Source of the DNA: Flavobacteriales bacterium
GTDB taxonomy: Bacteria; Bacteroidota; Bacteroidia; Flavobacteriales_E; Vicingaceae
Direction of reading: 5' to 3'
DNA: 64,000 bases
Assembly: GCA_015075325.1 (NCBI GenBank)
Contig: JABTUP010000014.1
Coordinates: 1-64,000, forward strand
The position numbers and the translations under genes were made by a program. Position 1 is the stretch's first letter, and each line of letters opens with the position of its first letter. The notes beneath the pieces are model-generated. The model did not search any database, was not told the DNA's origin, and saw nothing but the letters and a program-made list of their open reading frames with translations. This document shows positions 8,421-60,799 of the stretch, piece after piece.

Positions 8421-8462
8421 TAAGCAAACAACTTTGTTTTACTGCACAAAGTTGTTTGCTTA
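8421..8462. repeat. 16-bp perfect inverted repeat between the polyamine genes
   Basis: Arms TAAGCAAACAACTTTG (8421-8436) and CAAAGTTGTTTGCTTA (8447-8462) surround a 10-nt loop. No long T-run follows on the minus strand, so it may be an mRNA stability or partial termination element between the synthase gene and nspC rather than a full terminator. Confidence 0.75.
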
Positions 8463-8490
8463 GCCCCTCCTTCGGAGGGATTGGGGAAGC
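8463..8490 (-). repeat. Interspersed CCCCTCC...GGAGGG palindromic repeat
   Basis: The sequence holds CCCCTCC, a TTCG loop and GGAGGGATTGGGG. It is the same kind of repeat as the two copies near 57534 and 57621, in the orientation of the second. It starts directly after the inverted repeat and stops just before the synthase stop codon. Confidence 0.7.
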
Positions 8491-8492
8491 TC

Positions 8493-43943: not shown

Positions 43944-43990
43944 AATAGCAATAAAAAACCCTCCTTAAAGGAGGGTTTTTTATTGCTATT
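43944..43990. terminator. Perfect 23-bp inverted repeat, bidirectional terminator
   Basis: Arms starting AATAGCAATAAAAAACCC at 43944 are perfectly mirrored to 43990 around base 43967, with T-runs inside the stem on both strands. It lies between the dehydratase gene and nhaD, whose stop is 13 bp further on. It should stop both convergent transcripts. Confidence 0.9.
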
Positions 43991-55673: not shown

Positions 55674-57530
55674 ATGGCAGAAGAATCAAATTATACCGAC
55701 GACAGTATCCGCTCATTAGATTGGAAAGAACACATCCGATTGCGACCTGGTATGTACATCGGTAAGTTAGGCGATGGTGCTGCTTACGACGATGGTATTT
55801 ACATCTTACTCAAAGAGGTTGTCGATAACTGTATTGACGAATTTGTAATGGGCAATGGAAGAACTGTTGATATCTCAATAAAAGACCGCCAAGTTAAAGT
55901 TAGAGATTACGGTAGAGGTATTCCCCTAGGAAAAATGATTGATGCCGTATCGAAAATGAATACGGGTGGTAAATACGATTCAAAAGCGTTTAAAAAATCG
56001 GTTGGTTTAAATGGTGTTGGTACAAAAGCGGTAAATGCTTTATCAAGCCAGTTTATGGTGGAATCGGTTCGTGAAGGACAAATAAAAAAAGCAGAATTTG
56101 AACGCGGTGAATTGATTAATGATTATCCTGTTGAAGCTACTTCATACCGAAACGGAACCAAAGTTACCTTTATACCAGATGAAGCTATTTTTAAAAATTA
56201 CCAATTTCGTATGCAGTTTGTTGAGAAACTGCTGTGGAATTACGCATTTTTAAATACTGGACTTACCATTAACTTTAATGGTGAAAAAATCCAATCCGAA
56301 AACGGATTAAAAGATTTATTACAACAAAACTTATCTGACGAACCACTTTATCCGATCATCCACTTACATGGTGAAGATATTGAGGTTGCTATTTGCCACA
56401 CCCAAGCTTACGGCGAGGAATACCACTCGTTTGTTAACGGACAATTTACGCCTCAAGGCGGAACACATCAAAACGAATTTAGAGCTGCTTACGTAAAAAC
56501 CATTCGTGAATTTTATGGTAAAGATTATGACGCTTCCGATATTCGTTCTGGAATAATTGCAGCGGTGAGTGTAAAAGTAATGGAACCTGTTTTTGAATCG
56601 CAAACCAAAACAAAATTAGGTTCTACTGAGGTTGGTCCTGATGGACCTTCGATGCGTGCTTTTATCAACGATTTCTTAAAACGAGAGTTAGACAACTTTT
56701 TGCATAAAAACCCCGAAGTTGCAGAACAACTTCAGCGCCGAATTTTGCAGGCAGAACGTGAGCGTAAAGACATGGCTGGCATTAAACAATTAGCTAAAAA
56801 AAGAGCCAAAGAAGTTTCGTTACACAACAAAAAATTGAGAGACTGTCGCGTTCATTACAACGATGAAAAAGATAACGACAAAAAAATAGAAACCACTCTT
56901 TTTATTACTGAGGGTGATTCGGCTTCTGGTTCAATTACCAAATCGAGAGACGTAAACACACAAGCCGTTTTTAGCTTAAAAGGAAAACCGTTGAATGCTT
57001 ATGGTTTAACAAAAAAGGTAGTTTACGAAAACGAAGAATTTAACTTACTACAAGCTGCCTTAAACATTGAAGAAGGAATTGAATATTTGCGTTACAACAA
57101 CATTGTAATTGCTACCGATGCCGATGTGGATGGTATGCACATTCGTTTGTTGTTAATTACGTTTTTCTTACAGTTTTTTCCTGATGTAATAAAAAACGGG
57201 CATTTGTATGTATTGGAAACTCCTCTTTTTAGAGTTAGAGATAAACAACAAACGTTCTATTGTTACTCAGAAACAGAAAAAAGAGAAGCATTAGAAAAAT
57301 TAAAAGGAAAAGCAGAAATTACCCGATTTAAAGGTTTGGGGGAGATTTCCCCTAGTGAATTCAAGTATTTTATTGGTGATGACATAAGGTTAGCTCCAGT
57401 TATTATAGGTTCTGATACCCCTGTTCAGAAACTATTAGATTTTTATATGGGCAAAAATACTCCAGAACGACAAGAGTTTATTATCGACAACTTAAAGGTT
57501 GAAAAAGATTTAATTGAGGAAAGTTTATAA
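55674..57530 (+). CDS. parE: DNA topoisomerase IV subunit B
   Basis: A 618-residue type IIA topoisomerase ATPase subunit. The GHKL domain has [26 protein letters not shown] and [14 protein letters not shown]. The transducer follows, and the TOPRIM domain has [11 protein letters not shown] (near residue 418) and [15 protein letters not shown]. It ends at about the length usual for Bacteroidota ParE, shorter than GyrB. With ParC it decatenates daughter chromosomes. The parC gene follows after an inserted DUF559 gene, an unusual interruption. Confidence 0.92.
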
Positions 57531-57533
57531 CTA

Positions 57534-57566
57534 TACACTCCCCCTACCCCCTCTTTTTAGAGGGGA
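57534..57566 (+). repeat. Palindromic CCCCTAC...GAGGGG repeat, first copy
   Basis: TACACTCCCCCTACCCCCTC, a TTTTTA loop and GAGGGGA form a GC-rich hairpin directly after the parE stop. The second copy at 57621-57652 is in inverted orientation, so the two could also pair with each other. Confidence 0.75.
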
Positions 57567-57620
57567 AACAAGAGTGAAAAAAATATTAAATGTTAAAAGG
57601 TATCAAATAGCACGCTTTAT

Positions 57621-57652
57621 TCCCTCCTAACAAGGAGGGTTAGGGAGGTGTA
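57621..57652 (-). repeat. Palindromic CCCTCC repeat, second copy, inverted
   Basis: TCCCTCCTAACAAGGAGGGT and following TAGGGAGGTGTA match the reverse complement of the first copy with a few changes (TACACCTCCCTAACCCTCC read on the minus strand). It ends 13 bp before the DUF559 start and is the same repeat type as at 8463-8490. Confidence 0.75.
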
Positions 57653-57664
57653 CTTTGTTTGATT

Positions 57665-58048
57665 ATGAAAATATATTATAACCAGAACTTAAAACTATTA
57701 GCAAGAAACCACAGAAACGATTCTACAAAATCTGAAATTAAGCTTTGGCAAGAATTAAAAGGAAAAAAGATTTTAGGTTATAAGTTTTTAAGACAGAAAC
57801 CGATTGGGAACTATATAGTTGATTTTTTTTGTAACAAACTTAAATTAGTAATAGAATTAGATGGTTACACTCATCAATTTGAAGATGTGATTATTAAAGA
57901 TGAAAAAAAGGATTTATATTTAAATAGTATAGGAATTACAGTATTACGATTTAACGATAACGAAGTAATGAATGATATGAATAATGTACTACGTGGTATT
58001 GAAAGTTTCATTTTAGATTTTGAAAAAATCAATATAAAGGATTTATAA
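57665..58048 (+). CDS. DUF559 family protein (putative endonuclease)
   Basis: A 127-residue protein from ATG 57665 (KIYYNQNLKLLARN); a TTG two codons earlier is less likely. TKSEIKLWQELKGKKILGYKFLRQKPIGNYIVDFFC spans residues about 20-57 and is interrupted here only for length: the marks are ELKGKK, FLRQKPIGNYIVDF, then VIELDGYTHQ. This is the DUF559 pattern, a Vsr-like PD-(D/E)XK fold predicted to cut DNA. It sits between parE and parC, ending 3 bp before parC, with an inverted repeat pair just upstream. Its role is unknown. Confidence 0.87.
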   Translation: MKIYYNQNLKLLARNHRNDSTKSEIKLWQELKGKKILGYKFLRQKPIGNYIVDFFCNKLKLVIELDGYTHQFEDVIIKDEKKDLYLNSIGITVLRFNDNEVMNDMNNVLRGIESFILDFEKINIKDL

Positions 58049-58051
58049 AAA

Positions 58052-60799
58052 ATGGAAGAAAACGAAGACGATAACATAGAAAGAGACGAAGAGTTTGAAG
58101 GTAACGAAGGTGAACAGTTAGAAAACGTTATTCAAGTTTCGGGCATGTACCAAGAATGGTTCTTGGATTATGCCTCTTATGTAATATTAGAACGTGCCGT
58201 ACCTCATTTAAATGATGGATTAAAACCTGTTCAACGTCGAATTCTTCACTCCATGAAAGAATTGGATGATGGTCGTTACCACAAAGTAGCCAACCTTATC
58301 GGAAACACCATGAAATATCACCCACATGGTGATGCTTCTATTGGAGATGCTATGGTACAAATCGGACAGAAAGATTTGTTAATTGATTGTCAAGGAAACT
58401 GGGGAAATATTTACACTGGCGATAGAGCTGCGGCTCCTCGATACATTGAAGCACGTCTTACTAAATTTGCCTTAGACGTTGTTTTTAATGCAAAAACAAC
58501 CACTTGGCTTTCCTCTTACGATGGAAGAAACCAAGAACCTGAAACTCTGCCTATTAAATTTCCATTATTATTAGCTCAAGGAGTTGAAGGAATTGCTGTT
58601 GGTTTGGCATGTAAAACATTGCCTCACAATTTTAATGAACTGATTGATGGGTCTATAGCCATTCTAAAAGGAAAAAAAACCAATATTTTACCCGATTTTC
58701 CAACGGGTGGTTTAGCAGATTTTTCGGGTTACAACGAGGGTTTAAGAGGTAGTAGAGTTAAAATTAGAGCAAGAATTGTAGCTGAAGATAAAAAAACATT
58801 AAAAGTAACTGAATTACCTTTCGGAGTTACTACCGATAAATTAATTGAATCTATTTTAAAAGCAAACAGTAAGAACAAAATTAAGGTTCGTCAAATTGAG
58901 GATAATACAGCCGAAAATGTTGAAATTCTAATTCATTTACCAGCAGGCGTTTCTCCCGACAAAACCATTGATGCCTTGTATGCTTTTACCGACTGTGAAA
59001 TTTCTATATCACCAAACAGCACCGTAATTCATGAAGACAAACCCAAATTTATTGGCGTAAATGAGTTGTTAGAAATTTCTACTCACAATACGGTTGATTT
59101 ACTTCGTAGAGAATTGGAAATCCGCAAAGGAGAATTAGAAGATCAATGGCATTTTTCGTCGTTAGAAAAAATATTTATCGAAAACAAAATCTATGTTAAG
59201 TTGCATGGATTGGGTTATGAAGAAGCTTTAGACTCTACACTTCAATTATTACAACCTTTTGTAAAACATTTACTAAGACCAGTTACAGCGGATGATGTTG
59301 TTCGATTGCTCGAAATAAGAATGCGAAGAATTACCAAGCACGATGCGGACAAAGCTGAAGAAAAATTACTTGCATTAGAAGATGAACTTCGAAAAGTAAA
59401 ATACAACCTCGAACACTTAATTGAATTTGCGATAGAATATTTCAAAGAAATTAAACGTAAATATGGTGAAGGTAGAGATAGAAAAACAGAAGTACGTTCG
59501 TTTGAAAGTATTGATGCTGCTGAAGTTGCCATAAACAACGTAAAACTCTACTTAAATAAGGAAGAAGGATTTATCGGTCATGGATTAAAACGTGGCGAAG
59601 GCGATTTTGTTTGCGATTGTTCTGATATTGATGACATTATTGTATTTAGAGAAGATGGTAAAATGTTAGTTACTAAAATCACACAAAAAGCTTTTGTTGG
59701 TAAAAATGTAATTTATGCTGGAGTATGGAAAAAGGATGATAAACGTACCATTTACAACTTAATTTATCAGGACGGAAAAACTGGTCCTGCCATGATGAAG
59801 CGTTTTCCTGTAACATCAATAACTAGAGATAAGGAATACGATTTAACCAAAGGAACTGCTGGATCAAAAATATTGTGGTTTACAGCAAATCCAAACGGTG
59901 AAGCAGAAACTATTTTAGTAAAACTTCGTCCAAAACCAGGTGTGCGTAAATTGAAATTTGAAGTGGAGTTCTCCGAACTTGCTATTAAAGGAAGAGCAGC
60001 TTTAGGTAACAGAGTTACCAAATACCCTATTGCCAAAATTGAATTGAAAGAAAAAGGAGTTTCTACCCTTTCTGCTCGTAAAATTTGGTTTGATGATACC
60101 GTTCAACGATTAAATGCAGAAGGTAGAGGCGATTATTTAGGAGAATTTAAACCTACCGACAAAATACTTACCATTATGCAAACAGGCGAGTATCATTTAA
60201 CAGGTTTCGATTTGTTTACCAAGTTTGACGAAAACATGATTGTAATTGAAAAATGGAATCCAAAAAAACCTGTTTCGGCAATTTACTTTGATGGAGATAA
60301 AAAACAATACAACGTAAAACGCTTTTTAATTGAACCTTCACCAAATAAAGTCTCATTCATTTCTGAACATCCCGATTCTTTCCTTGAAGTAGTTTCAACC
60401 GATTGGAAGCCTCAAATTCAACTGAATTTTGCTAAAGACAAAGGCATTGAACGTGCTTCTGAAGTAATTAATTTAGAAAATTTTATTGCTATTAAAGGAC
60501 TAAAAGCCATCGGCAATCGTTTAACTACTTATAAAGTAAAAAACATTGATTTATTAGAACCCCTTCCTTACGAAGAAATAGAAGAAATAAGCCACGAGTT
60601 GGAAGAGGAAGGTTTTGATTCGGAAGAAGATGTAGATGATTTATTAGATAATGATAATTTAGATTTAGATGATGAAACTTTAGAGGACGAAAAACCTGCA
60701 ACAGAAATAAAACTACCTTCGGAAGAAAAAAAAGAAAAAAAAGGACCAATAAAACCCATTATTGATGATGATGGAGAAAGTCAAATGACCCTATTTTAA
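58052..60799 (+). CDS. parC: DNA topoisomerase IV subunit A
   Basis: A 915-residue subunit. The winged-helix core has GLKPVQRRILHSM and the catalytic Tyr131 in AAAPRYIEARL. A long coiled-coil arm follows (about 340-480), then the beta-pinwheel C-terminal domain. The last ~70 residues are acidic and Lys-rich (HELEEEGFDSEEDVDDLL, later EEKKEKKGP) and end QMTLF, a pattern like the beta-clamp binding motif. A preceding acidic N-terminus (about 1-25) is also unusual. It forms the heterotetramer with ParE. Its stop overlaps the rhomboid gene start (TAATG). Confidence 0.92.
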   Translation: MEENEDDNIERDEEFEGNEGEQLENVIQVSGMYQEWFLDYASYVILERAVPHLNDGLKPVQRRILHSMKELDDGRYHKVANLIGNTMKYHPHGDASIGDAMVQIGQKDLLIDCQGNWGNIYTGDRAAAPRYIEARLTKFALDVVFNAKTTTWLSSYDGRNQEPETLPIKFPLLLAQGVEGIAVGLACKTLPHNFNELIDGSIAILKGKKTNILPDFPTGGLADFSGYNEGLRGSRVKIRARIVAEDKKTLKVTELPFGVTTDKLIESILKANSKNKIKVRQIEDNTAENVEILIHLPAGVSPDKTIDALYAFTDCEISISPNSTVIHEDKPKFIGVNELLEISTHNTVDLLRRELEIRKGELEDQWHFSSLEKIFIENKIYVKLHGLGYEEALDSTLQLLQPFVKHLLRPVTADDVVRLLEIRMRRITKHDADKAEEKLLALEDELRKVKYNLEHLIEFAIEYFKEIKRKYGEGRDRKTEVRSFESIDAAEVAINNVKLYLNKEEGFIGHGLKRGEGDFVCDCSDIDDIIVFREDGKMLVTKITQKAFVGKNVIYAGVWKKDDKRTIYNLIYQDGKTGPAMMKRFPVTSITRDKEYDLTKGTAGSKILWFTANPNGEAETILVKLRPKPGVRKLKFEVEFSELAIKGRAALGNRVTKYPIAKIELKEKGVSTLSARKIWFDDTVQRLNAEGRGDYLGEFKPTDKILTIMQTGEYHLTGFDLFTKFDENMIVIEKWNPKKPVSAIYFDGDKKQYNVKRFLIEPSPNKVSFISEHPDSFLEVVSTDWKPQIQLNFAKDKGIERASEVINLENFIAIKGLKAIGNRLTTYKVKNIDLLEPLPYEEIEEISHELEEEGFDSEEDVDDLLDNDNLDLDDETLEDEKPATEIKLPSEEKKEKKGPIKPIIDDDGESQMTLF

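Follow-up and report, generated by a model that had tools for sequence, protein, structure and literature searches.

The question raised by the window, a stretch of 64,000 nucleotides from a member of the Flavobacteriales, is how a nuclease gene and a pair of inverted palindromes came to lie between parE and parC, and whether they belong together. The features concerned are the following.

57535..57569, minus strand: REP-like palindrome, copy A (from the sequence; pattern match at 57542-57564, none in 100 shuffles)
57620..57654, plus strand: REP-like palindrome, copy B (from the sequence; pattern match at 57622-57645)
57665..58048, plus strand: intact free-standing DUF559 (EDxHD-like) nuclease gene (PF04480, conserved residues, AlphaFold2 model and fold)
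57531..58051, no strand: whole stretch from parE stop to parC start (DUF559 here only, among 30 ParC loci in 30 genomes)
8462..8491, plus strand: single REP-like palindrome, of the type that predominates among solo copies in the genome (sequence and pattern match)

Direct reading of the sequence shows copies A and B to be inverted with their tails outward; copy A combines the tail ACACTCCCCCTA, which points toward parE, with the hairpin CCCCTC-TTTTTA-GAGGGG, while copy B has the hairpin CCCTCC-TAACAA-GGAGGG followed by the tail TTAGGGAGGTGTA. The search pattern, CCCTCN{4,9}GAGGGN{3,4}GGG, fits only part of the palindromes; it matches the window at 8465 (+), 57542 (−) and 57622 (+). Both members of the pair lie to the left of the nuclease gene and none to its right. 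The open reading frame (57659-58048) encodes 127 residues from the ATG at 57665 or 129 from the TTG at 57659, and its product is a member of PF04480 (E 4.5e-33; 113.8 bits against a curated cut-off of 20.6). An earlier note on this DNA had described a GC-rich inverted pair ahead of a DUF559 gene and the same repeat standing alone near 8463, and both observations hold. A further hairpin at 43953-43981 was rejected as a family member; its flanking runs of A and T are those of an ordinary bidirectional terminator.

The parE stop codon ends at 57530 and parC starts at 58052, with both palindromes and the DUF559 gene in between. Among the 31 genomes searched (the source genome included), a ParC locus was found in 30 and ParE was also mapped in 26; DUF559 is absent from the ParC loci of all 29 other genomes. 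In the closest relative, G001 (ParC 92% identical), the gap between the two genes is 9 nt; two distant relatives have gaps of more than 1 kb. The loci without DUF559 and the 9-nt gap show the stretch in the window to be an inserted segment of roughly 0.5 kb, as the earlier note had supposed. The heptamer TTTATAA is present at both edges (57524-57530 and 58042-58048), in each case as the end of a stop codon in AT-rich DNA; that this pair represents a target duplication is possible but unproven.

In free-standing DUF559 proteins, E24, D53, E64, D66 and H70 are invariant in 19 rows, and in copies nested within other proteins the corresponding E44, D72, E83, D85 and H89 are invariant in nine rows, across hosts; we take the conserved E, D, ExD and H to be the catalytic residues. 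The AlphaFold2 model of the window protein (pLDDT 88.7) best matches 3hrl, followed by the catalytic domain of I-Bth0305I (Foldseek E 1.3e-5, TM 0.81 on the target), and a profile search also connects DUF559 with I-Bth0305I (E 9.6e-7). Predicted fold and profile thus place DUF559 with this EDxHD homing endonuclease. In the accessible text of the two sources, EDxHD is one of at least six homing endonuclease families (PMC3943268), and one DUF559 gene has already been filed under it (PMC9403480). The PDB entry describes I-Bth0305I as a mobile intron protein, whereas the nested DUF559 unit stays within the host protein and has REP-like ends. The resemblance to REP-associated transposases that had been suggested survives in that palindromes adjoin a nuclease, but among the nearest solved relatives of the enzyme there is a homing endonuclease and no REP transposase.

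Palindromes and DUF559 genes are associated well beyond this locus. The source genome contains 71 raw palindrome matches (none for the backwards control pattern), collapsed to 56 distinct sites on reading the list, and three DUF559 genes, each of them beside such palindromes. DUF559 is present in 22 of 46 genomes of the order; at 34 of 36 loci (one match each, from 47 matches) a palindrome adjoins on at least one side and at 22 on both, compared with 13 of 242 control windows (5.4%). For the phylum Bacteroidota, palindromes lie within about 280 bp of DUF559 at 72 of 77 named loci and flank it on both sides at 55, against 35 of 1954 control windows (1.8%); the remainder of the 80 named loci lie too close to a contig end. 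The proposed pairing of repeat and gene is in this way supported, and units occupy places where relatives show short empty sites. The idea of a small mobile unit whose enzyme moves the repeats is supported in outline for the unit but not for the enzyme as mover of the repeats: there are 56 sites for three genes, and the ends of the commonest solo repeat are found in identical form on none of the three DUF559 units. Two observations had been named in advance as speaking against the idea, DUF559 genes lacking the repeat and repeats far outnumbering the gene; none of the three genes lacks it, yet the excess of repeats is plain.

The numbers lead to the strongest competing explanation, in which Y1 (RAYT-like) transposases act in trans to move the palindromes, as REPs, and DUF559 is a passenger between two repeats. 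Repeat number per genome follows Y1 count (rho 0.67; within-genus permutation p 0.0002; partial 0.56 given DUF559) better than DUF559 count (rho 0.45; within-genus p 0.003; partial 0.16), and all five genomes with DUF559 but without Y1 have just one or two raw repeat matches. According to the part of PMC6006769 available, TnpA_REP is thought to move REPs, is present in Bacteroidetes, and can itself contain REPs in frame. However, the control pattern correlates with Y1 count as well (rho 0.39); palindromes are found near only 3 of 35 Y1 loci (3/15 and 0/20) and never on both sides, for which Y1 was rejected as the local partner of the repeats; the Y1 copies examined adjoin other palindromes; and the nuclease residues are under purifying selection, which a passenger would not need. 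We regard this explanation as unlikely. Since repeat number follows Y1 better than DUF559, a role of Y1 in spreading lone repeats is nevertheless kept as a possibility.

With REPtrons (REP/TnpA_REP/RAYT) the DUF559 units share palindromes with one-sided tails that can form inverted pairs, a nuclease gene that adjoins the palindromes or is enclosed by them, and dispersed lone copies; they differ in that the enzyme is DUF559, not Y1/HUH, and in that many core genes contain a unit in frame. At the base of the hairpin, the 5′ GT[AG]G foot that PMC6006769 gives for REPs is absent from the copies read by eye, and a Y1/HUH gene flanked by repeats was found at none of the 35 Y1 loci.

The nesting is seen in the source genome itself, where DUF559 is part of the 849-residue open frame of recG and is bordered by a palindrome on either side; this is the only RecG of the genome, the other match being a 41% relative taken for Mfd. 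When the Pfam family itself was the query, 15 of 47 order-level matches, and 37 of 150 among the matches listed for the phylum, lie in frames of at least 280 residues. In the scan that gave the 80 named loci, 66 lie in ORFs of at least 230 residues, a figure enriched for nested forms because the query was built from nested copies. Hosts named by library models are IleRS, LeuRS, RecG, MetH, MazG, a LegC-like aminotransferase and WecB; others are a CCA-adding-like polymerase, a two-domain ABC ATPase, guanylate kinase, HisD, MetRS, GH31, TsaB and an 8-amino-7-oxononanoate-synthase-like enzyme, with HisD, guanylate kinase and the synthase-like enzyme being end fusions rather than internal insertions. 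In nested proteins the host profile resumes on either side of DUF559, and the palindromes are translated as linkers. In G041 and G045 the LeuRS with the unit is the only one of its genome, and the unit lies directly before the EVFTTRPDT motif; at this place (site A) most relatives have an empty version of 21 residues. Insertion sites recur: RecG 20 of 20 (L176 on its left side only), MetH 7 of 7, LeuRS site A 14 and IleRS site A 13, not counting the low-scoring L181, L207 and L184 or L186, which lies elsewhere. On the DUF559 tree, inserts group according to their host gene (two changes for RecG, versus 18.6 shuffled). No intein splicing (Hint) domain was detected in 17 proteins scanned with Pfam; because of this, and because the frame runs through, the unit is taken to stay inside the host protein. 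The AlphaFold2 model of the RecG chimera (pLDDT 69.4, pTM 0.40) is too weak for use. Of the 80 named loci, a single one lies outside Bacteroidota: a LeuRS-nested DUF559 (L203) on a contig labelled Candidatus Paceibacterota, which reflects either transfer or a misbinned MAG contig.

Taken together, the data probably describe a unit of the homing type, made up of a nuclease and REP-like ends, which resides within proteins with neither an intron nor an intein, and the best explanation for the window copy is a free-standing member of this family of small mobile units. The unit would consist of a DUF559 nuclease and at least one REP-like palindrome at its edges, tails outward, placed between genes, as in the window, or in frame in conserved hosts, at loops tolerating extra residues; the palindromes of nested units would be read as linker peptides, with no removal as intron or intein. 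The nuclease may cut unoccupied sites (or the palindromes), whereupon repair would copy the unit into the cut site, as with homing endonucleases. Loss of the interior would leave palindrome pairs in frame, or scars, which would account for part of the lone repeats. It is likely the unit, and not the repeats at large, that is driven by its nuclease.

Inteins, too, bring a nuclease in frame into conserved genes at recurrent sites. The DUF559 unit resembles them in all of these respects and differs in lacking a splicing domain in the proteins scanned; the accessible part of PMC3943268 gives the same description for inteins with homing endonucleases. Rickettsia palindromic elements (RPE), of about 150 bp, are located in frame in unrelated genes and translated (PMC10969869, as far as its available text goes), and by placement the palindromes in metH, polA and metG of the source genome and in LeuRS of G037 are of the same kind. 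Unlike RPE, whose description in that text mentions no nuclease, full units here carry a conserved one, and some of the small forms look like deletions of the full DUF559 unit. The literature searched, which included few subscription papers, yielded no DUF559 with repeats at its boundaries and none nested in RecG, LeuRS, IleRS or MetH. A wider proposition, with the balance slightly against it, is that Bacteroidota harbor selfish elements in which a homing-type nuclease with palindromic ends settles in loops of essential single-copy enzymes as a permanent domain, spreads across species at fixed sites and decays to REP-like repeats and linkers; that tolerance of the reading frame does for these elements what splicing does for inteins is a conjecture of similar standing. 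The reading as a homing-type unit brings together in one story a nuclease family annotated as unknown, a family of REP-like repeats and in-frame insertions in core enzymes, and it offers an explanation of how some of the linker insertions of tRNA synthetases, RecG and MetH arose; it would amount to a homing strategy without splicing and would supply coding palindromes resembling those of Rickettsia.

The forms expected from loss of the interior are represented. The metH gene of the source genome (L017) keeps both unit ends, with the nuclease missing, at the position that nested MetH units occupy elsewhere; RecG of G051 has two unit ends joined; and in G037 a single palindrome lies in frame at site A of LeuRS. 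In the source genome, REP-like palindromes are also read in frame in polA (L014; DNA polymerase I) and metG (L007; MetRS). The best reading is that some lone palindromes are deletion remnants of the DUF559 unit. RecG loops of G042, G043, G015 and G003 are longer than those of empty relatives and may be older scars. A REP-like palindrome is also located near the end of a hydratase-like gene (L020) of the source genome. At LeuRS site A, leuS of G040, G036 and G001 (L323, L325 and L326) has a different, AT-richer palindrome in frame, like ACAATTCTCAGTC...GACTGAGAATTGTG; because an unrelated palindrome is also found there, the recurrence of sites may reflect permissive loops.

Nuclease Ka/Ks is 0.06-0.13 in the 12 of 17 pairs with measurable Ks, which is near saturation in most, and Ks could not be computed in the other five. 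In 20 recG units, the translated left hairpin shows 95.7% pairing, versus 51-71% for slid versions, and double changes fill 20 of 140 cells versus 6.1 in shuffled data, with none of 500 shuffles as high. The invariant residues, the low Ka/Ks and the hairpin covariation indicate that the enzyme and the hairpin, as DNA or RNA, are both being kept. Constraint on the enzyme would also be expected if nested DUF559 were a domesticated domain of benefit to its host, such as a nuclease serving RecG in repair, inherited mainly by descent, with the palindromes as relics of an old insertion. The Ka/Ks is near that of the host, and a Caulobacter DUF559 protein has been proposed, in the part of PMC12907096 available, as a Vsr-like repair enzyme. 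In the family of the source organism, the six RecG inserts form one clade whose distances parallel those of the hosts (Mantel r 0.73); a single gain followed by several losses may therefore account for much of the RecG pattern. Against domestication, the hosts are unrelated (aminoacyl-tRNA synthetases, MetH, GH31, MazG, WecB and more), the hairpins still covary, and empty, longer-looped and full recG alleles coexist within one genus. Presence is also patchy; on the RecG tree (42 rows, without L176 and L132, for which no spanning frame was found, and without four loci repeating rows already full), the full state requires seven changes, of which at least six are forced by starred branches. We give this explanation somewhat less credence still than transport by Y1. 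That the palindromes are terminators or regulatory hairpins near DUF559 by chance is very improbable; the hairpin at 43959 is such a terminator, but the enrichment of palindromes at the named loci and their translation inside genes contradict it for the repeats.

Descent and movement of the unit were examined with trees. The DUF559 tree, built on few columns, with many open forks and without a free-standing gene on C60 missed by the motif filter, separates a free-standing group, including the window gene, from nearly all nested copies together with free-standing genes of Bacteroidales. In insert trees the units of the source family join Polaribacter and Tenacibaculum, whereas host RecG unites all Flavobacteriaceae; the conflict is not significant (p-AU 0.134), and the trees give only a hint of possible allelic homing of the RecG unit. 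For one Tenacibaculum pair, insert Ks is 0.28 versus 0.79-0.84 for the host; judged by Ks, the insert is younger than its host. Third-position identity of this pair peaks over the insert and is high in the first 160 codons too.

Two other kinds of enzyme were encountered. GIY-YIG genes were rejected as partners of the repeats, palindromes being near one of five loci in the source genome; downstream of one such gene (L043, C1:59130), at about 140 bp, are two CCC-type palindromes. In three genomes, a Y1 (HUH) domain lies in frame inside a restriction-modification-like gene, the host being named by eye (L344, G040:C10; L345, G037:C102; L346, G041:C225; L347, G040:C12), with AAGGGAGCATGCTCCCTT palindromes at two of the four loci; nested Y1 is a second kind of enzyme that shares the nested lifestyle with DUF559.
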